64,000 nt of DNA from a bacterium. Its GTDB lineage: Bacteria; Myxococcota_A; Bradymonadia; UBA7976; UBA1532. This document shows positions 20,131 through 63,046 of this stretch, in pieces; the stretch's first letter is position 1, and each line of letters begins with the position of its first letter. A program made the translations under genes and the position numbers. The DNA lies in contig JAUHYW010000027.1 of NCBI GenBank assembly GCA_030426085.1, positions 1 through 64,000 on the forward strand, read 5' to 3'. A model generated the notes under the pieces. The model worked only from the letters and a program-made list of their open reading frames with translations. It had not been told where the DNA came from and made no database searches.

Positions 20131-21804
20131 ATGTCCCGCCCGCTCTTCTGCGCGCTGCTCGCGTGTGGCGCGCTGCTCGGCTGCGAGGCCGAGCCCACCG
20201 AGACGCCGCCGACGACGCCCGACGAGGCCCCGGCCGATCCGGCGACCGTCGAGTTCGAGGCCCGCCCGCCGCCGGTGCCCCGGCTGACCGCGGCCCAATA
20301 CGCCAACAGCATCGCCGCCCTCTTCGGCGACGACATCGTGGTGCCGCCCGAGCCCGAGCCCGACGCCCGCGAGGGCGGGCTGCTGGCGGTGGGGGCCGGG
20401 GTCAGCACGCTGTCGCCCCGGGGCGTCGAGAACTTCGAGCGGGCGGCCTACGCGGTCGCCGGGCAGGTGCTCGACGCCGAGCGGCGCGATCGGGTGCTGC
20501 CCTGCCCCGCCGCCGAGCTGGATCGGTCGTGCATGGAGGCGTTCACCGCCGAGTGGGGCCGCCGCATCTGGCGCCGGCCGCTGACCGCCGACGAGATCAC
20601 CCGGCTGGCCGAGGTCGGCGAGCGGGCCGGCGAGACGCTGGGCGATGCGGTCGCCGGGCTCGAGTACACCCTCGCCGGGCTCTTGCAGTCGCCGAACTTC
20701 CTCTTCCGCCGGGAGCTGGGCGAGCCCGATCCGGCCGACGCCGGGCGGCGGCGCTTCACCGACTACGAGATGGCGGCCCGGCTGAGCTTCCTCTTGTGGA
20801 ACGTCACCCCCGACGACGCGCTGCTCGACGCGGCCGAGGCCGGCGAGCTGACGACCGCCGAGGGGCTGCGGGCCCACGCCGAGCGGATGTACGCCGACCC
20901 CCGCTCGCGGGACGGCGTGATGCGCATCTTCATCGAGTGGTTGGGGCTCGACGACCTCGACGAGCTGCGCAAGGACACCGCGGTCTTCGTCGCGATGAGC
21001 CCCGAGGTGGGCTCGGCGGCGCGCACCGAGACGCTGTCCCTCATCGACGATCTGGTCTTCGCGCGCGACGCCGACTTCCGGGGCTTCTTGACCGAGCGGC
21101 GGACCTTCGTCGACCGCAAGCTGGCCGCGCTCTACGGGGTGCGGGCCCCGGCCCGGGACGGCTTCGCCCCGGTGGATCTCACGGGCAGCGGGCGGCGGGG
21201 CTTCCTGGGGCAGGTCAGCTTCCTGGCGCTCAACAGCCACCCCACGAGCACCTCGGCCACGCTGCGGGGCAAGTTCGTGCGGGAGAAGCTCTTGTGCCAG
21301 GTGGTGCCCCCGCCGCCGTCGGACGTCGACACGTCCATCCCCGAGCCGTCGGGCACCACCCGCACCCTGCGGGAGCGGGTCGCCGAGCACCTGACCAACC
21401 CCGCCTGCGCCGGCTGCCACGAGCTGACCGACAAGGTGGGGCTGGCGTTCGAGACGTTCGACGGCCTCGGCGTGGCCCGCACGCTGGATCACGGCGCGGT
21501 CATCGATCCCAGCGGCGACCTGGACGGGGTGCCGTTCAGCGACGCCGATCAGCTCGTCGAGCTCATCGCGGGCGACCCCGGCTTCGGCTTCTGCGTCGCC
21601 CGGCACGTCTTCCGCTACGGCACCGGCACCCTCGACGCCCGCGATCAGGAGGCGCTGGTGCAGACCCTCGCCGATCGCTTCGCGGCCGACGGGCACCGCT
21701 TCGAAGGGCTGCTGTTCGACTTCATCGCGAGCCCGGCCTTCCGCGAGGCGGGCCGGTTCGAGGCAGGCGACGTCGAAGCAGGCGACGTCCAGGGGGGCGA
21801 GTGA
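20131..21804 (+). CDS. DUF1592/DUF1588-family c-type cytochrome lipoprotein
   Basis: 557 residues, lipoprotein signal with lipobox ALLGC. The order of segments matches the PSD group (DUF1587, DUF1595, DUF1592, DUF1588, DUF1585): RLTAAQYANSIAALFG near 50, an RRPLTADE block near 150, FRRELG/DYEMAARLSFLLWN near 195-225, and NSHPTSTSATLRGKFVREKLLC near 370-390. Then come CAGCHELTDKVG with the heme site C426-x2-C429-H430 and the terminal FRYGTGTLDARDQEAL block. These proteins are paired with DUF1552 partners in Planctomycetes and Myxococcota. A redox role in the envelope is inferred from the heme site, but the substrate is unknown. It overlaps the next gene by TGATG. Confidence 0.85.
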   Translation: MSRPLFCALLACGALLGCEAEPTETPPTTPDEAPADPATVEFEARPPPVPRLTAAQYANSIAALFGDDIVVPPEPEPDAREGGLLAVGAGVSTLSPRGVENFERAAYAVAGQVLDAERRDRVLPCPAAELDRSCMEAFTAEWGRRIWRRPLTADEITRLAEVGERAGETLGDAVAGLEYTLAGLLQSPNFLFRRELGEPDPADAGRRRFTDYEMAARLSFLLWNVTPDDALLDAAEAGELTTAEGLRAHAERMYADPRSRDGVMRIFIEWLGLDDLDELRKDTAVFVAMSPEVGSAARTETLSLIDDLVFARDADFRGFLTERRTFVDRKLAALYGVRAPARDGFAPVDLTGSGRRGFLGQVSFLALNSHPTSTSATLRGKFVREKLLCQVVPPPPSDVDTSIPEPSGTTRTLRERVAEHLTNPACAGCHELTDKVGLAFETFDGLGVARTLDHGAVIDPSGDLDGVPFSDADQLVELIAGDPGFGFCVARHVFRYGTGTLDARDQEALVQTLADRFAADGHRFEGLLFDFIASPAFREAGRFEAGDVEAGDVQGGE

Positions 21805-23171
21805 TGGGTGATCCCATGCGCGGTGTGAAGCTGGATGGCATCCTGGCCCGGGGCCCGCTGAGCCGGCGGGGCTTCCTGCGGGGCATGCTCGGGGGCGCGG
21901 CGGTGTCGATCGCCCTGCCCTGGCTCGAGACGCTGGCCGGCAAGCGGGCCTTGGCCCAGGGGTCGTTCCCCACCCGCTTCGGCCTGTTCTGGTGGGGCAA
22001 CGGCATGCGCCCCGACGCCTGGACCCCCACCGGCGAGGGCGCGGGCGACGCGTGGCAGCTCTCGGAGTTGCTCCAGCCGCTGGCGCCGGTCAAGGATCGG
22101 ATCACGGTGGTCAGCGGCACCGCGCTCAAGGTGCCCAACGACATCCCCCACCACTCGGGCACGGCCGGCTCGCTGACCGGCATGCCGCTGTGGGTCAAGA
22201 GCCACGAAGACCAGACGATGAACGGCCCGACCATCGATCAGCGGATCGCGGCCGACATCGGGGGCGAGACCCGGTTCCGCTCGCTGGAGGTGGGGCTGTA
22301 TCCCAACCGGCACACCATCAGCTACAACGGCCCCGACAACAAGAACCCGCCCGAGGTGTCGCCCGCGGCGCTGTTCGAGCGGCTGTTCGGGCCCGAGTTC
22401 CGGGCCCCGGGCGAGGCGACCGAGGTCGACCCGAAGCTGGCGCTGCGGCGCTCGGTGCTCGACGCGGTCGCGGCCGACATCGGGCGCTTCCAGCGGGGGC
22501 TGTCGGCGGCCGATCGGGTGCGCCTCGACCAGCACCTGACCGGGGTCCGCGAGCTGGAGCGGCGCATCGCCCGGCTGGAGGCCGATCCGCCCGATCTCGC
22601 CGCCTGCCTGCGGCCCGAGGCGCCGGTCTCGGAGTACGACTACATCGAGGGCAAGCCTCAGATCCCCGCGAAGAGCCGGGTGATGGCCGATCTGGCGGTC
22701 ATGGCGCTGGCCTGCGATCAGACCCGGGTGTTCAGCTTCCAGGTCAACAGCCCGATCCAGAACCTCCAGATCGCGGGGTCGGATCAGGGCTTTCACAACC
22801 TGACCCACGATGAGCCCGAGCCGCAGGTGCAGGTCAAGCGCATCGTGACCTCGATCATGGAGGAGTACACCTACATGATCCAGCGGCTGGACGCGGTGGA
22901 CGAGGGCGGCGAGAGCCTGCTCGATCACATGGCGCTGCTGGCGACGAGCGACATCTCGTTCGGCCGGACCCACAGCCTCGACGAGTTCCCCATCGTCATC
23001 GCCGGCACCGCCAACGGGCGGCTGCGGGCCGGGCTGCACTACCGCTCGCCGTTCGCCGAGAACACCAGCATGGTGATGCTCAGCCTCATCCGGGCCTGCG
23101 GGGTCAACGCCGGCTCGTGGGGCGCCGAGGGCGGCTACGTCGAGGACGGCCTCGGCGCGATCGAGGCGTGA
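21804..23171 (+). CDS. DUF1552 (HXXSHH) protein with Tat-type signal
   Basis: 455 residues. The N terminus has a twin-arginine signal, SRRGFLRGMLGGAAVSIALP, followed by RFGLFWWGNGMRPDAW. The family signature region around residue 110-125 reads PNDIPHHSGTAGSLTG. Later blocks (SYNGPDNKNPPEVSPAALFERLFG, FSFQVNSPIQNLQ, a C-terminal SMVMLSLIRACG) follow the DUF1552 pattern. It is exported folded, perhaps with a bound metal or cofactor. The ATG overlaps the preceding stop, so the two proteins are probably made together and act as a pair. The function of DUF1552 is not known. Confidence 0.85.
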   Translation: MGDPMRGVKLDGILARGPLSRRGFLRGMLGGAAVSIALPWLETLAGKRALAQGSFPTRFGLFWWGNGMRPDAWTPTGEGAGDAWQLSELLQPLAPVKDRITVVSGTALKVPNDIPHHSGTAGSLTGMPLWVKSHEDQTMNGPTIDQRIAADIGGETRFRSLEVGLYPNRHTISYNGPDNKNPPEVSPAALFERLFGPEFRAPGEATEVDPKLALRRSVLDAVAADIGRFQRGLSAADRVRLDQHLTGVRELERRIARLEADPPDLAACLRPEAPVSEYDYIEGKPQIPAKSRVMADLAVMALACDQTRVFSFQVNSPIQNLQIAGSDQGFHNLTHDEPEPQVQVKRIVTSIMEEYTYMIQRLDAVDEGGESLLDHMALLATSDISFGRTHSLDEFPIVIAGTANGRLRAGLHYRSPFAENTSMVMLSLIRACGVNAGSWGAEGGYVEDGLGAIEA

Positions 23172-44347: not shown

Positions 44348-44372
44348 CCCGGGTCGACGTCACTCGACCGGG
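44348..44372. terminator. Hairpin between convergent genes
   Basis: CCCGGGTCGA and TCGACCGGG form a 9-10 bp stem with a one-base bulge. The 6-nt loop holds the stop codon of the minus-strand gene. No T-run is present. Confidence 0.4.
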
Positions 44373-45558
44373 ACGCACTCCAGGCCGCTGCGGCACAGCC
44401 AGATCCCGGGCTGCCCGTCGACCTCGCACGCCCGCCCCACCTCGCGGGGCGCGCCCGCGACCCCGTCGCAGTCCCAGTCGTCGCGGGCGTAGCACCGATC
44501 GGGCTGGGGCTGGGCGGACTCGGCGTCGCAGCGAAGGCGCCCGCCCTCGCAGATCAGGAGGCCGGCCGCCGCGCACCACCCCTGCCCGGTGGTACACGGC
44601 AGATCGACGCCCGCCGGCCGCTCGTCGATGAGCCCGTCGCAGTCGTCGTCGACCCCATCGCACAGCTCCGGGCGGGGATCGCTCGCCCCGTCGCACGCCC
44701 CCCAGCCGGCGCCGACGCAGCGCTGCTCGCCGGCCACGCAATGACCCAGCCCGTCGACCCCCGGCGCCCGCGGGCCGCACGGGCGCACCGCACCCTCGGC
44801 GCACCCGCAGTCCAGGCCCTCGTCGACCGCCCCGTCGCAGTCGTCGTCCGACCCATCGCAGCGCTCGGGCCGGGGCGTGATGGCATCGACGCACGACACA
44901 TGCCGCCCCGCCTCGCACCGTCGGGCGCCGGCCCGGCACCGCCCCACGCCCTCGGTCCCCGGCGGACCGGGGTAGCACGGGGGCGCCTCGGCCACCTCGT
45001 CGACGATCGCGTCGCAGTCATCGTCGAGGCCGTTGCAGATCTCGTCGAGCGTCGCCGGCTCGATCACCGGCACGCAGCCGAGGGCGCCGGCCCGGCACCG
45101 CACCTCGCCCGCGGCGCACCGCCCGATGTGATCGGTCACGCAGGCGCCGAGGAAGGCCTCGTCCTCGTCGACTTCGCCGTCGCAGTCGTCATCCACGCCG
45201 TTGCAGCCATCGACCTCGGCGACAGCGCAGCGCACCTCGTCGAAACCGGATCGATCGCATTGGAGGGTGCCTTCACACGCACCTCTCATGCACGGCTCGC
45301 CTATCGCGAGCCCTTCGTCCAGGAAGCCGTCGCAGTCGTCGTCGATCCCGTTGCACTGCTCCGGACGGGGCACCAGGAAGTTGCGGTCGTCACAGTCGGG
45401 CCCCGGGTCGCAGTCGACGCCGAAGCCGTCGCCGTCGCCGTCGATGCACGGCACGTCCAGATCGCGGACGACGACGTCCCGACACCCGGCGCCGAGCAGC
45501 AGCAGCGCCGAGGCGGCGAGGGCGAGGCGGGCTTGCGCTGGGCGGGCCCGGGGGCCAC
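44360..45558 (-). CDS. MopE-type metal-binding-motif lipoprotein, apparent 5' frameshift
   Basis: About 400 residues. The mature part has at least five repeats of the putative metal-binding motif (C-N-G-x-DDDCDG-x-x-DE), starting with CIDGDGDGFGVDCDPGPDCDD. These are known as Cu-binding_MopE-like (PF11617) and are common in Myxococcota. The signal peptide RLALAASALLLLGAGC is present, but no ATG, GTG or TTG exists in its frame nearby. The only suitable start, GTG 45558, is one frame off. Adding one C to the CCC run (GGG at 45529-45531 on plus) would give a normal N terminus, MAPGPAQRKPRLALAAS. This is either a real mutation or a sequencing/assembly error. Copper binding is inferred from the family name only. 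Confidence 0.65.
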
Positions 45559-46189: not shown

Positions 46190-46200
46190 GCGCGCGCTCA
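46187..46200. terminator. Palindrome formed by two facing stop codons
   Basis: TGAGCGCGCGCTCA is a perfect 14 bp palindrome. Its left TGA stops the barrel gene and its right TCA is the stop of the minus-strand cytochrome gene. It may act as a short bidirectional hairpin or roadblock. Confidence 0.35.
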
Positions 46201-47955
46201 CAGAGACTCGAGGAAGGCCACCAGATCGGCCCGCGCGTCGGCCGGCAGCGCCTCGACGTCCCCGTGCGCCGCGCCGCCGCAGGCCGGAACGAAGCGCTCG
46301 GCGAGGGTGCCGGCGCAGCCGTCGTGCATCAGCGGCAGCCGATGGGCGGCCCCCACCAGGGACGGCACCTGCAACGCCTCGCCGGTGCCCACGTCGTGCG
46401 ATCCGGGGTCGACGGTGCCATCGGCGAAGTGACACGCCCGGCAGCCGGCCTCGTCGAACACCCGCTCACCGCGCTCGACGGCGCCCGGATCGAGGGCCGG
46501 CGCCGGGGGCAGCGTCGGCACGGTGTCCAGCCAGGCCCCGAGCGCGTCGTGCTCGGCGAGGGTCAGCGGATCTCCGCCCATGCGGCCGACGAAGACCTCC
46601 TCCATGAAGGTGTCGAAGTCGTCCAGATCACCGCTCCAGTGGAACGGCGCCCGCCCGCTCAGCCCGCCGTGCAGCGTCTGGGTCCGCCGGGGCCCGAACG
46701 CCTCGAAGACCCAGACGTGCCCGTCCTCCCCGCCCTCGGGGTGGCAGCTCGCGCAGGCGATGCCCGAGCGGGTCGCCCGGTGGAACAGCGCATGCCCCGA
46801 GTCGACGAGCGGCGCGGCGTCGAAGGTGATCCCCAACCACCGCTCCGTGCTGCCCGACGACAGGCTGGGGCGCTCGCCCGCGATCTGCGCCGTCTGCGGC
46901 TCGAACCACCACAGCCGCGTCCCCTGCCACGCCACCGCGACCACGCCCCGCGCGGCCACCCCCGAATCACCGCACAGGTAGTCGTAGAGGCCGGGCGTCC
47001 CGTTCGGATCGGCGACCGCCACCCGCCCGTCGGGGCTCACCGCCACGTCGACCCCGAGGACGGTGCCCACCGGGGAGGCGGGCTCGGCGGTCTGCGCCCC
47101 CGGCCCGACCCGGGAGAGGGCCTGATGCAGCACCCCGGCGCTGCCGCAGCCGCCCCCGCCCGCGTAGTACTGCACCGCACTGCTCAGGTCGGGCAGCGCT
47201 GAGCGCCGGTGCCGTTGATGCAGCAGGACCGGGTCGCCGGTGGGATCGGAGACCATGCGCCACGCCACCCGGGGGGCGAGCGGCTCGCCGCCGCGGTGGC
47301 TCTCGACCGCGGCGGGCACCGGCTCGATCGCGCCGGCGGCGTCGACCGCGAAGACCTCCGCCGAGCGGAACGTATTGACGAGCACCCGGTCGCCGTCGAC
47401 GACGACGTCCCGCAGATCGGGCGCGACCATCACCCGCCCCCGCTCGGCGTGGGTCTCGGCGTCGAGCTCGACCAGCGCGCCGTGCAGGCAGGCGACGTAC
47501 AGGCTGTCCCGGCCGATGTCGTAGGCGATCCCCCGGGGCGCAGGGCACACCGCCGTCCGCCGGAGGATGGCCGGCTCGACCGGGTCGAACGCCACGACCG
47601 CCCCGCCCCGCCGCAGCGCGACGTGCACCCGGCCGGCGGCGTCTTCGGCCATGCGATTGGGCCGATCCCCCGCCTGCAACGGGAGCCGCCCGTGCGCGCT
47701 GCGCGTGTTCGGATCGACGATCCACAGCATGTCGCGGTCGAGATCGGCGGCGATGACGAAGCGATCGTCACGGGTGACGATCAGGCCGCCGCCGACGATG
47801 GGCGCCACCGGCGCCGAAGACAGATCGGGCACCGGCGTGGCCTCGTCGACGTGCTCGTTCTCGGCGGGGGGCGGCGGGCCCGGCTTCACCTCGCAGGCGG
47901 CGAGCGCAGTGACGGCGCAGAGCCCGATGAGCGGTGTGACGAGCCCGTGTCGCAT
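46198..47955 (-). CDS. Beta-propeller diheme cytochrome c lipoprotein
   Basis: 585 residues. Lipobox ALAAC. Residues 50-380 read as a YVTN/NHL-type propeller (FVIADLDRDMLWIVDP with Asp-rich blade ends, RDSLYVACLHGALVELD). The C-terminal 200 residues carry two heme c sites, CASCH near residue 401 and CRACH near 505, embedded in a MauG/cytochrome-c-peroxidase-like context (HWSGDLDDFDTF, GRMGG). GAGGAGG lies 6 nt before ATG 47955, and a good promoter lies upstream (47980-48008). It probably transfers electrons at the outer membrane or periplasm. Such propeller-cytochrome fusions are frequent in Myxococcota and have no assigned substrate. Confidence 0.8.
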   Translation of the reverse strand: MRHGLVTPLIGLCAVTALAACEVKPGPPPPAENEHVDEATPVPDLSSAPVAPIVGGGLIVTRDDRFVIAADLDRDMLWIVDPNTRSAHGRLPLQAGDRPNRMAEDAAGRVHVALRRGGAVVAFDPVEPAILRRTAVCPAPRGIAYDIGRDSLYVACLHGALVELDAETHAERGRVMVAPDLRDVVVDGDRVLVNTFRSAEVFAVDAAGAIEPVPAAVESHRGGEPLAPRVAWRMVSDPTGDPVLLHQRHRRSALPDLSSAVQYYAGGGGCGSAGVLHQALSRVGPGAQTAEPASPVGTVLGVDVAVSPDGRVAVADPNGTPGLYDYLCGDSGVAARGVVAVAWQGTRLWWFEPQTAQIAGERPSLSSGSTERWLGITFDAAPLVDSGHALFHRATRSGIACASCHPEGGEDGHVWVFEAFGPRRTQTLHGGLSGRAPFHWSGDLDDFDTFMEEVFVGRMGGDPLTLAEHDALGAWLDTVPTLPPAPALDPGAVERGERVFDEAGCRACHFADGTVDPGSHDVGTGEALQVPSLVGAAHRLPLMHDGCAGTLAERFVPACGGAAHGDVEALPADARADLVAFLESL

Positions 47956-56771: not shown

Positions 56772-57701
56772 TCAGCGCTGGCGGCGGGTCTTCTCGTTCT
56801 CGATCCAGCGCAGCAGGCGCACATGCCGGGGATCATCGGCCCCCCGGAAGACGTCGCGCCCCCCGTGCAGATCGGTCCGGGGCTGGGTCAGCAGCGGCGA
56901 CCGGGGCGGGTTGATCATGTCGATGTAGATCTGGGTCGCGAAGAAGTTCCAGTCGGCGTAGCACTGCTCGTCGCCTTCGAGCAGGTAGTAGCCGTCCCCC
57001 TCGCCGGCGAGCGCGTGGCACGCCCCGTTGCGGGCGCACGAGCCGACGAGGATGTCATTGTGGCTCACCCCCTCGGCGTCGGAGGCCTCGAACTCGTCGC
57101 GGAACTGGTCGGTGAAAGCCAGATCGTCGCCCACCTGGGGCAGCGCCTCGCAGGGCACCGGCGGGGGGCCCATGTCGACGCCGACGTCCGGCTCCCCCGG
57201 GTCGGGGCCATCGGGGCAGGGCGGGATCATCGCGCCGAGGGTGATCCAGCTCACCAGCGCCGTCAGCAGCGGGTCTTCGACGTAGCCCGGGTGCCCCTCG
57301 GGGTGCCACGCGATGATGTCGCACGTCTCGGGCGACTCGAGGCAGCTCGGGGCGACGAAGCTGGCCGACTCGGCGGCGTCGGTGGCGGGATCGTCGGCGA
57401 GGTAGAACGCGTCGTCCGGCGCGTCGGGGTTCTGATGGCACAGCGAGCAGGCGGTGAACATCGGCCCGGCGACGTTGGCGGTGAAGTCGGCCACGTCCGG
57501 CTCGAACGTCGGCGGCGGACAACTCGACATGTCGACCGCGGCGTCGACGGTCACGTCCATCGTGCCCTCGTCCATCACCGACATCTCCATCGGCCCCCGG
57601 TCGGGCGCCAACGCCATGTCGGTCACGCTGATCGGCTCTTCGTCACAGCCCGCGGCCAGGCTCAGCAGCGCGATCGCTGCCAACCACTTGAACTGCCCCA
57701 T
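56772..57701 (-). CDS. c-type heme lipoprotein
   Basis: 309 residues. Lipobox LAAGC, then an Asp/Met-rich linker. One clear heme c motif, CSLCH, lies near residue 84. A second site, SCARNGACHA, near 215 has a wider C-x5-C-H spacing, which may be a paired-Cys/His metal site rather than heme. The C-terminal part (RDVFRGADDPRHVRLLRWIE) is typical of Myxococcota outer-membrane cytochrome lipoproteins. AGGAGGAG lies 4 nt before ATG 57701. On the minus strand TATGCT (57734-57729) is a possible -10. An envelope electron-transfer role is inferred. Confidence 0.7.
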   Translation of the reverse strand: MGQFKWLAAIALLSLAAGCDEEPISVTDMALAPDRGPMEMSVMDEGTMDVTVDAAVDMSSCPPPTFEPDVADFTANVAGPMFTACSLCHQNPDAPDDAFYLADDPATDAAESASFVAPSCLESPETCDIIAWHPEGHPGYVEDPLLTALVSWITLGAMIPPCPDGPDPGEPDVGVDMGPPPVPCEALPQVGDDLAFTDQFRDEFEASDAEGVSHNDILVGSCARNGACHALAGEGDGYYLLEGDEQCYADWNFFATQIYIDMINPPRSPLLTQPRTDLHGGRDVFRGADDPRHVRLLRWIENEKTRRQR

Positions 57702-59263: not shown

Positions 59264-62200
59264 TCACTCGGCGCCCGCCGCCTCGACCGCGAGCACGAAG
59301 TCGCCGCTGCGCCCGCGGAATCCGCCGACGATCACCGTCACCGCCGCGCCCGCCTCGAGCTCGACCGCCGCCCGGGACAAGGTCCCCTCCCCACCGTCGT
59401 CATCACACGCCAGCTCCTCGCCGCAGCCGTCGGCCAGCACGAGCAGGCTGGTGTCGTAGCTCGACCCCGCGGTGTGGAAGACGTAGCGCCCGGCCGCCGG
59501 CGCGCTCCAGCGGTAGGCGACCTGGGCCGCGATGGGCAGGCAGCTCGCCATCATGTAGGTCGGCGCGCCCACCGTGCTGCCCCGGGCCAGCTCGCCGATC
59601 CCGTCACCCAGATCCTCGCCGGGGCAGGCCTCCCGCCGACCGCGGATCGAGAGCGCGACGTCACCCTCGACGCGCCCCTCGGCCGCGACGACGACCGCCT
59701 CGCCCGCCGCCAGATCCAGCTCGACCGCGGCCTGATCGCTGATCGGCGTGTCCCCCCGCACGCCCCGGTAGTCGGCGGCGCAGGCCAGCACCTCGCCGTC
59801 GCACGCGCCGGCCCGCACCTCGATCGCGCTGTCGGTGGCGCTGCCGAACGTATGGAAGAGGTAGCGATCATCGGCCGGCGCGCGCCAGGTGTAGCCGATG
59901 GAGCCGCCGTCGTCGGCGCCACAGCTCAGCCGCCCGTCGTCGAAGTCCTCGGTCCGGGCCACGGCCAGCCGCTCGCCCGACCGCGCGCCGAGATCGGCCG
60001 CCGGGCAGACATCGCTCTCGATCCGCCGGGCGATGTTCAGGGTGAAGCCGCCCCGGGCGCCCCGATACCCCCCGACGCCGATCACCGCCGACTCGCCGGC
60101 CTCGAACCGCCGCTCGATGCGCGATTGCAGGCCCCCGTCGTCGTCGTTGCAGGCCCGCTCGGCGTCGCAGTCGGGGGCCAGCAGGAACAGCGCGGTGTCA
60201 TAGCCCGAGCCGAAGGTGTCGAAGATGTAGGTGCCGGCCTCGGGCGCGGTCCAGGCCAGCGTGACGTGGGCCCCGCCCCCCGCAGCGCACGACGCCACCC
60301 GCCGGGTCGCCGCGCGGTCGGTCACCGCCCGGTGCACGCCGGGCCCCACCGCCGATCCCAGATCGACCTCGGGGCAACCGGTCGTGCGCCCGTGGATGCC
60401 GAGCCGCCACAGGCCACCGTCGGCCTCGCCATCCCGCAGCATGCCATCGACGGCCACCGTCACCGCCTGCCCCGCCGCCAGCGGCACCTCGACCAGCGCG
60501 TCGTCGCCCGACAGGGCGTCGTGCCCCTCGGCGCAGGCCAGCGGGGCCCCGTCGCAGCCGCCGTCGAGCACGTACAGCGACGTGTCGAACGAGCTGTCCC
60601 GGGTATGGAAGACGTAGGTGTCGTCGGCCGGCGCGGTCCAGCTCATCGCGACCTCGCCCCGACCGCGCCCGGCGCACAGCCCGTCGAGCCCGTCCGCCAC
60701 CGGCTGCTCAGGGCCGAAGGCCACCGCCTCGCCCAGCGCGCCGCCCAGATCGTCGATCGGGCAGACGTTCGCCGGCGCCCGCGGCGGCAGGGCGCACAGC
60801 TCTTCGCAGTCCGGGTCGTCGCAGTCCACCGCGCCGTCGCCGTCGTCGTCGAGCCCGTCGGCGCACAGCCGCTCTTCGGCGAGGACCACCACCGCATCCC
60901 CCACGAGCCGCACCCGCACCGCGGCGGCGTTGTTCTCGTGGTCCAGCTCGGCGAACCGCCCCTCGGGGTTGGTCGTCACGACGAGGTCGTAGATGCCATC
61001 CGGCACGTCGGTCACGTCGACCCACTGACATTGCAGGTTGCGCCCGTAGGTGTCCTGGCACCCGGCCGTGATGCCTTGATTGCGCGCGTTGTAGCCTCGG
61101 CAGCCGTCCACCGCGATCTCGGGATCGTAGACCCCGATGTCGATGACCGAGAACCCGGCCTTCGCGCCGATGGGCAGCCGCTCGCCGGTCGCGACGTCGA
61201 TCAGATCGTAGATGGCATAGGCGTCGAAGTGATAGTGACCATGGCACTGATCCCAATCCCACAGCGGGTTGCCTTCTTCGGGGCGCCCCAGCCGCAGATC
61301 GACGTTGCCCACGTTGGCGATGCGGGTGCCGAAGCGCAGGATCTTCCGCCGCCCGACCCCGCCGACGCAGCGCTCTTCGATGAGGCACGGGTCGTTCACG
61401 TCGAGGAAGTCGATCACCGCCGTCTCGGCCAGATAGTCCCGGTCGACGATGAGATCGGGCGCCTGGGGGCAGGCGTCGGCGTCCTCCGGCTCGAGCCCGG
61501 TCAGCCCGCCGGCGCACTGCCCGCACGCGTCCACGAAGGCGTCGCCCCCGCAATCGCCGTTGCAGTCCCGGGCCTCGCCCGGAGCCCGCCCGGTCGATCC
61601 GCCGACGCACACCCCACACCCGTCGACGAGCGCCACCCCGCCCACCATGCCCGCGCAGTCCGCCTCGCAGCCGGCGGCGAGCCGCTGCACCTGGAGTGTG
61701 CCCTGGCGATCGAGGTCGAAGTCGTCCCACAGGGGCGCGAGCAGGGCGCCGAGATCGGCCCGGGGCAGCGGGCTGTCGGCCCCGCCGGGATCGGGCCCCG
61801 AGAGCACGAGGGTGCCGTCGGCGTAGACCGTGCCTCCGGGGTAGACCGCGTCGCCGAACGGGAAGTCGAAGCCGAAGTCCACCGGGATGGCGTCCCGCTC
61901 GTCGAACTCGCCCGTCAGGGGCTCGCCGCTGTGCTGGATGTCCACGAAGATCGGGGGCACCGACTGGTCGAGCGCGGCCCGTCCGTCCTCGCCGCGGCGG
62001 AAGTAGAAACCGCCGGCGCCCCGGGCGAGCTGGCCCCCGCTGTCGAGCGTCAGCGCGCGGGCGCCGCTGAGCTGCTGGTGGCCGATGGTCGGGCTCGCGC
62101 CCCACGGCTCGAGGTCGCCGTAGCGGAAGGCGAAGTCGCCGCTCTCGAACAGCGCGATCTGGAAGGTGTAGGGCCCGCCGTTGCCGTCCGCCTGCGCCAC

Positions 62201-63046
62201 CCGGGTCCATTGGATGATCGTCCGGGCGGTGGGATCGGGCGGGCACTGGTCGCAGAGGTCGGGGATGCCGTCGCCGTCGAGGTCGTCATCCGCCGGGCTC
62301 TGCCCGGTCGTGCCGCCGACGCAGCGCCCGCAGCCGTCGAGGGTCGCCGCGCCGAAGCAGACGCCGACGCAGTCCTCGTCCCGCCCGCCGCCGGCGCAGA
62401 CCCCGCAGTCATCGGTGTCATCGGTGGCGCACATCGGTTCGGGATCGCCGCCCACCGCCACGAAGCCATCCGGCGCGGTGCAGGCGTCGACGGCCACCGC
62501 CGAGTCCCCTGCTCCGTCGCCGTCCACATCGGCGTAGAAGCGGCCCGGCCCGGGGCCGCCACAGACCCCGCAGCCGTCGGTGTCATCGGTCTCGCACATG
62601 GGATCGGGATCCCCGGCGCGCGCCACGAACCCATCCGGCGGCGCGCACGCCCGAACCTCGATCGCGGCGTCACCCACGCCATCGCCGTCTACGTCGGCGA
62701 AGTAGATGCGCGGGCCGTCGCCGCCGCAGATCCCACAGACATCGGTGTCGTCGGTCGCGCAGGCCGGCTCGGGATCCCCCCCGCCGTCGACGAAGCCATC
62801 CGGCCGGGCGCAGGCGACGACGGGGACTTCGAAGTCCCCGACGCCATCCCCATCGACGTCGGCATAGAAGATGTGGGGGCCGTTGCCCCCGCAGACCCCG
62901 CAGCCGTCGACCGGGGCCTCGGGCGCGCAGCCGGACACCGCGGCGTCAGCCTCGGGCGGGGGCTCGCCGTCGCCGTCCCCTTCGACGCAGCCGGCGAGTA
63001 TCAAGGCTCCGAGCGCGGGCAGAATTCGCAGTGCGGTGTACTTCAT
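59264..63046 (-). CDS. Giant lipoprotein with a lysyl-oxidase domain
   Basis: 1260 residues. Lipobox LILAGC. Residues 30-250 hold four copies of a Cys/Asp module (YADVDGDGVGD...CGVCGG). A nidogen-like beta domain follows (about 270-440), with more Cys modules at 450-525. A lysyl-oxidase domain covers about 530-690. Its copper motif WDWDQCHGHYH has His602, His604 and His606. The lysyl-tyrosyl-quinone pair is Lys629 (GAKAGF) and Tyr667 (QDTYGRN), matching human Lys320/Tyr355. CQWVDVTDVPDG and LDHENN are also LOX-like. The first His of the animal WEWH motif is Asp599. Four PPC-like beta domains (about 760-1255) end it. It would oxidise amines or protein lysines at the cell surface. A possible promoter is at 63053-63082, leaving almost no leader. 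Confidence 0.85.
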   Translation of the reverse strand: MKYTALRILPALGALILAGCVEGDGDGEPPPEADAAVSGCAPEAPVDGCGVCGGNGPHIFYADVDGDGVGDFEVPVVACARPDGFVDGGGDPEPACATDDTDVCGICGGDGPRIYFADVDGDGVGDAAIEVRACAPPDGFVARAGDPDPMCETDDTDGCGVCGGPGPGRFYADVDGDGAGDSAVAVDACTAPDGFVAVGGDPEPMCATDDTDDCGVCAGGGRDEDCVGVCFGAATLDGCGRCVGGTTGQSPADDDLDGDGIPDLCDQCPPDPTARTIIQWTRVAQADGNGGPYTFQIALFESGDFAFRYGDLEPWGASPTIGHQQLSGARALTLDSGGQLARGAGGFYFRRGEDGRAALDQSVPPIFVDIQHSGEPLTGEFDERDAIPVDFGFDFPFGDAVYPGGTVYADGTLVLSGPDPGGADSPLPRADLGALLAPLWDDFDLDRQGTLQVQRLAAGCEADCAGMVGGVALVDGCGVCVGGSTGRAPGEARDCNGDCGGDAFVDACGQCAGGLTGLEPEDADACPQAPDLIVDRDYLAETAVIDFLDVNDPCLIEERCVGGVGRRKILRFGTRIANVGNVDLRLGRPEEGNPLWDWDQCHGHYHFDAYAIYDLIDVATGERLPIGAKAGFSVIDIGVYDPEIAVDGCRGYNARNQGITAGCQDTYGRNLQCQWVDVTDVPDGIYDLVVTTNPEGRFAELDHENNAAAVRVRLVGDAVVVLAEERLCADGLDDDGDGAVDCDDPDCEELCALPPRAPANVCPIDDLGGALGEAVAFGPEQPVADGLDGLCAGRGRGEVAMSWTAPADDTYVFHTRDSSFDTSLYVLDGGCDGAPLACAEGHDALSGDDALVEVPLAAGQAVTVAVDGMLRDGEADGGLWRLGIHGRTTGCPEVDLGSAVGPGVHRAVTDRAATRRVASCAAGGGAHVTLAWTAPEAGTYIFDTFGSGYDTALFLLAPDCDAERACNDDDGGLQSRIERRFEAGESAVIGVGGYRGARGGFTLNIARRIESDVCPAADLGARSGERLAVARTEDFDDGRLSCGADDGGSIGYTWRAPADDRYLFHTFGSATDSAIEVRAGACDGEVLACAADYRGVRGDTPISDQAAVELDLAAGEAVVVAAEGRVEGDVALSIRGRREACPGEDLGDGIGELARGSTVGAPTYMMASCLPIAAQVAYRWSAPAAGRYVFHTAGSSYDTSLLVLADGCGEELACDDDGGEGTLSRAAVELEAGAAVTVIVGGFRGRSGDFVLAVEAAGAE

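Follow-up and report, generated by a model that had tools for sequence, protein, structure and literature searches.

The 64,000-nucleotide stretch of DNA analysed here, which we refer to as the window, carries on its minus strand a gene for a large lipoprotein with an embedded lysyl oxidase (LOX) domain, and sequence and fold together establish its domains, its lipobox, its five catalytic residues and the purifying selection acting on it. We propose, with moderate confidence, that the product is a catalytically competent LOX displayed at the cell surface, where it would cross-link surface material by amine oxidation.

Domain organization and active site of the LOX lipoprotein

The open reading frame (ORF) occupies 59264..63046, is supported by its coding score, starts with ATG and encodes 1260 amino acids. 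The first-pass annotation of this DNA had described a LOX domain within a lipoprotein of this length, a description borne out by the ORF, the lipobox, the Pfam LOX match, and the sequence and fold matches to human LOXL2. On the same strand as the ORF, a signal peptide with the lipobox LILAGC (residues 1-20; 62987..63046) is followed by three tandem 55-residue Cys/Asp repeats and a variant copy (residues 46-262; 62261..62911), with repeat patterns at 61/116/171 and 99/154/209. The D-x-D-x-D-G loops of the three tandem copies uphold the calcium-type modules proposed at first pass, and the N-terminal region of a homologue (L087) scores as TSP_3. Next come a permuted nidogen-like (NIDO) domain in which the C-half precedes the N-half (residues 270-460; 61667..62239), Cys-rich CGVCxGG / DCNGDC modules recognized by alignment (residues 461-528; 61463..61666), the LOX catalytic domain (residues 529-720; 60887..61462), an acidic double-disulfide repeat (residues 724-756; 60779..60877) and four PPC-like, putatively beta-sandwich domains (residues 762-1260; 59267..60763). 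We infer that the protein resides at the outer membrane.

Neither the NIDO domain nor the acidic repeat had been noticed at first pass; the latter scores 30.7 bits against NF033662, under the NCBIfam cut-off of 41, and has a weak match to teneurin-4. The four PPC-like domains had been, and they stand as mutually similar repeats (35-45% identical among themselves), with Pfam PPC (PF04151) scores of 21.8 bits in the window protein and 24.1 bits in its same-genus orthologue L078 that both fall under the curated cut-off of 25.9. A low-confidence model of this tail contains four similar strand blocks. Matches of the tail to generic beta-sandwich folds, including the collagen-binding domain of ColG (5iku), were set aside owing to the low confidence of the model.

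Residues 564-721 match the Pfam LOX family (PF01186) with an E-value of 6e-35 and 121.2 bits versus a curated cut-off of 20.4. The best PDB match is human LOXL2 (5ZE3) both by sequence (phmmer; E 1.1e-27) and by fold (Foldseek; E 8e-16, probability 1.00, model mean pLDDT 77.8). The motifs CHGHYH (residues 601-606), GAKAGF (from 627) and QDTYG (from 664) hold the putative copper ligands His602, His604 and His606 (codons 602-606; 61229..61243) and the predicted precursors of the lysine tyrosylquinone (LTQ) cofactor, Lys629 (61160..61162) and Tyr667 (61046..61048). These five residues align with H626, H628, H630, K653 and Y689 of LOXL2, and do not vary across all 86 of the sequences aligned, of which LOXL2 is one. 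The residue numbers given at first pass were exact, as was the claim of animal-like spacing: the third His and the Lys are 23 residues apart in both proteins, and the Lys and Tyr are 38 residues apart in the window protein versus 36 in LOXL2. The equivalence of the Lys/Tyr pair to that of the animal enzyme is likewise upheld by the alignment.

The orthologue L078 (JAUHXC010000012.1) is 78% identical to the window protein and shares its full architecture, PPC tail included, as well as the downstream synteny, but has a different upstream neighbour. Given this orthologue, its conserved downstream genes, and the invariance of the catalytic residues, the LOX match is not a chance one, and from its sequence and modelled fold we take the domain to be a genuine lysyl oxidase domain. 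In a comparison with L078, overall dN/dS was 0.29. LOX and the short Cys modules each came in at 0.12, NIDO at 0.25, the Cys/Asp repeats at 0.26 and the PPC-like domains at 0.22-0.56; among the large domains of the protein, LOX is under the strongest constraint.

Mutagenesis of human LOXL2 found the three histidines to be essential for the cofactor, and Gln mutants of two helper histidines, H623 and H652, to keep 21% and 39% of kcat/Km, respectively (PMC9694262). The alignment places Asp599 and Ala628 at these two positions in the window protein. Both cysteines of a pair present in 79 of the 86 sequences (C657/C673 in LOXL2 numbers) are missing from the window protein and from its closest relatives. 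With C657, C663 and C673 out of register, the ten-cysteine, five-disulfide pattern of animal LOX/LOXL is not found in the window protein; being reduced in other bacterial LOX too, this set is not defining for the wider PF01186 family. The absence of the helper histidines and the cysteine pair from the window protein and these relatives could be read as a sign that the fold is no longer enzymatic and persists as a structural or binding module. We find this very unlikely, as all five essential residues are kept throughout the 86 sequences under strong purifying selection and the H623 equivalent is also missing from other bacterial LOX (PMC4448552).

Distribution of LOX and the permuted NIDO domain

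The 10.1 Mb genome that contains the window has three LOX genes. Within the order, 7 of 16 genomes have LOX, and within the phylum Myxococcota 83 of 379, with many of the matches in open frames longer than 600 amino acids. When 84,980 species genomes were scanned, 497 relatives were identified, the best 80 of which comprised Myxococcota (some labelled just bacterium or proteobacterium) and Bacteroidota, with the Bacteroidota members of this set being mostly proteins of ~800 amino acids. Domain scans of four Bacteroidota LOX found T9SS sorting tails in three (L107, L095 and L096) and PKD domains in two (L107 and L145). Judging by these motifs, the lipobox and the T9SS tail appear to be two routes that both point to secreted or surface placement of LOX. 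A 2015 survey described prokaryotic LOX as mostly single-domain (PMC4448552), which fits these two phyla poorly given their long multidomain proteins. Plasmids yielded only distant LOX matches, in Streptomyces and Gemmatirosa, and viral contigs yielded no confirmed match. Weak matches of ~21-34 bits in the phylum genomes G029, G034, G039, G081, G099, G151 and G210 may mark a group of LOX that is distant or degenerate. At L087:4277-5578 (G137:C70), upstream of the intact LOX gene, lies another LOX-like stretch that has diverged (26% identity, weak LOX match).

Ten of the relatives (L078-L087) have a lipobox, the permuted NIDO region and LOX in common. The lipobox-like motif was recovered by pattern search in nine of the ten and by direct reading in the tenth (L078), and D-x-D-x-D-G-x-G-D loops occur in all except L086. 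Only L078 shares the PPC tail of the window protein; the nine others end 6-18 residues past LOX. In the LOX tree, the window domain pairs with L078, and the two join further Myxococcota LOX that have the permuted NIDO (seven rows; 100/87); Cys-tailed LOX, including one of the two other copies in the same genome, form a separate clade (100/99). The tree gave no firm support for permuted-NIDO LOX as a single clade. The branch leading to LOXL2 is very long, which leaves the tree silent on transfer between bacteria and animals.

In three of these relatives (L083, L084 and L085), Pfam NIDO (PF06119) matches as two stretches in reversed order with no canonical N-to-C profile match, and swapping the two halves in silico produces one continuous match of about equal score. 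The window domain falls below Pfam detection, its own sequence being too diverged, and alignment to these relatives identifies residues 270-460 as a probable permuted NIDO domain; the structural model falls short of establishing that the two halves pair, and the fold search found no solved structure resembling this region. The eleven best full-length matches to the permuted unit in the phylum (E < 1e-27) all lie in frames that also have LOX matches. Weaker full-span matches in other proteins lie in tandem NIDO arrays wherever neighbouring matches were listed, for example at G279:C427:55656-57119 and G250:C723:10508-11926 in other Myxococcota. Because the C-half of one unit in these arrays adjoins the N-half of the next, their sequences suggest that the LOX-linked permuted NIDO may have arisen by trimming of a tandem array. 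Two NIDO proteins encoded elsewhere in the same genome (C79 and C103) have the canonical order.

Gene neighbourhood and proposed role

Five downstream genes are kept beside L078, encoding a TPR protein, a small CxxCH lipoprotein, two unassigned ORFs and a VIT/VWA protein, with no evident copper or substrate gene among the five. Co-transcription in one operon with the carboxyl transferase gene upstream was rejected, as that arrangement is not kept at L078. The first-pass annotation had also pointed to a nearby MopE-type putative copper binder. The ORF at 44360-45454 does contain the corresponding Pfam motif, PF11617, a 30-residue Asp-rich metal-binding motif, but its link to LOX is weak given the shortness of the motif and a distance of ~14 kb from the LOX gene. 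As this short motif does not by itself establish copper binding, the MopE-like neighbour was rejected as evidence of copper supply; the presence of the motif within the Bacteroidota LOX protein L107 as well suggests a surface module of general use. Within the window, 46198-47955 has weak Pfam matches to cytochrome c and di-haem peroxidase (MauG-type), 56772-57701 encodes a small lipoprotein with CxxCH motifs and no Pfam match, and domains of the PSD/DUF1592 type and a DUF1552 (HXXSHH) domain occur in neighbouring genes at 20131-23171.

We envisage that the LOX lipoprotein would be exported and lipidated, bind Cu2+ via His602, His604 and His606, and form the LTQ cofactor from Lys629 and Tyr667. 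The mature enzyme would then convert accessible primary amines to aldehydes by oxidation, with release of ammonia and peroxide; the amines would most likely be those of lysine side chains in envelope or matrix proteins of the cell itself. Condensation of the aldehydes with nearby amines would then introduce cross-links into the surface material. Together, the Asp/Cys repeats, permuted NIDO domain and PPC tail may provide spacing and binding functions that position the enzyme at its target. Copper binding, cofactor maturation, the substrate and cross-linking are steps that we infer.

No substrate gene was linked to the LOX gene. Collagen-like matches occur in 288 of 379 genomes of the phylum and are so common as to be uninformative. 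The three collagen-like secreted proteins of the same genome that were read (L166:1186-2481, L167:481-2343 and L171:853-2433) have only 0-1 lysine in their Gly-X-Y stretches, which makes cross-linking of collagen in the animal style unlikely, and collagen was rejected as the substrate on this basis. At three further candidate collagen loci (L168, L169 and L172), the ORF listings contained no clear collagen-like frame.

Cross-linking need not be the role of the enzyme, since glycine, taurine, aminoglycosides and polymyxin are among the many primary amines that the archaeal enzyme HTU-LOX can oxidise (PMC6452851), and a metabolic or defensive role is possible. The window protein could accordingly be a broad-specificity surface amine oxidase that exploits small amines such as polyamines, amino sugars and amine-bearing antibiotics as nutrients or detoxifies them, or that makes peroxide. 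We think this unlikely but a genuine contender; its attached modules (repeats, NIDO and PPC) seem better suited to binding macromolecules or surfaces than to capturing small solutes.

The phylum is known for predation, and a surface lipoprotein with possible adhesion modules and a patchy presence (83 of 379 genomes) might act as a contact or predation factor, oxidising surface lysines of prey or competitors and thereby anchoring or damaging them through cross-links or peroxide. Among the proteins examined, no predation or secretion genes were recognised beside the LOX gene, and Bacteroidota commonly have related LOX proteins; this role strikes us as distinctly improbable. An intact active site, together with lipoprotein placement and modules of a binding type, favours surface amine oxidation with cross-linking. 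A more specific version, in which myxobacteria carry out covalent, copper-dependent lysine cross-linking outside the cell in parallel with animal connective tissue, and the permuted NIDO domain, having travelled with LOX since it was trimmed from a tandem array, tethers the enzyme to a matrix target, is one we regard as speculative.

Comparison with known lysyl oxidases

Animal LOX are copper enzymes that make protein cross-links in connective tissue. Human LOXL2 (5ZE3) shares with the window domain the LOX fold, the three histidines, the Lys/Tyr pair and five cysteines in register (573, 579, 625, 685 and 695). LOXL2 has SRCR domains, whereas the window protein instead has Cys/Asp repeats, a permuted NIDO domain, PPC-like domains and a lipoprotein signal, and is without the equivalents of H623, H652 and the C657/C673 pair.

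Bacterial LOX have been known since 2015 (PMC4448552, PMC6452851, PMC6508830). The archaeal enzyme HTU-LOX from Haloterrigena turkmenica has copper-dependent activity that is blocked by 3-aminopropionitrile (BAPN) (PMC6452851). Its cofactor residues are those of the window protein, but this prokaryotic LOX is short, is without extra modules and acts on many small amines (PMC6452851). LOX from Sorangium, Plesiocystis and Stigmatella belong to the same phylum as the window protein and have the same cofactor residues (PMC6452851, PMC6508830). The Sorangium enzyme has a Cys-rich C-terminal part, which the second LOX of the window genome (L002) appears to resemble; neither a permuted NIDO domain nor a PPC tail is described for these enzymes in PMC6452851 or PMC6508830. 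What is new here is the count of 83 LOX-bearing genomes among 379 Myxococcota, the long multidomain LOX proteins and the permuted NIDO domain, this multidomain build with swapped halves having hardly been described before. Bacterial LOX lipoproteins with conserved binding modules provide expressible proteins with which to test for animal-like cross-linking of a cell's own matrix, and the bacterial LOX set may help explain the origin of the animal enzyme.
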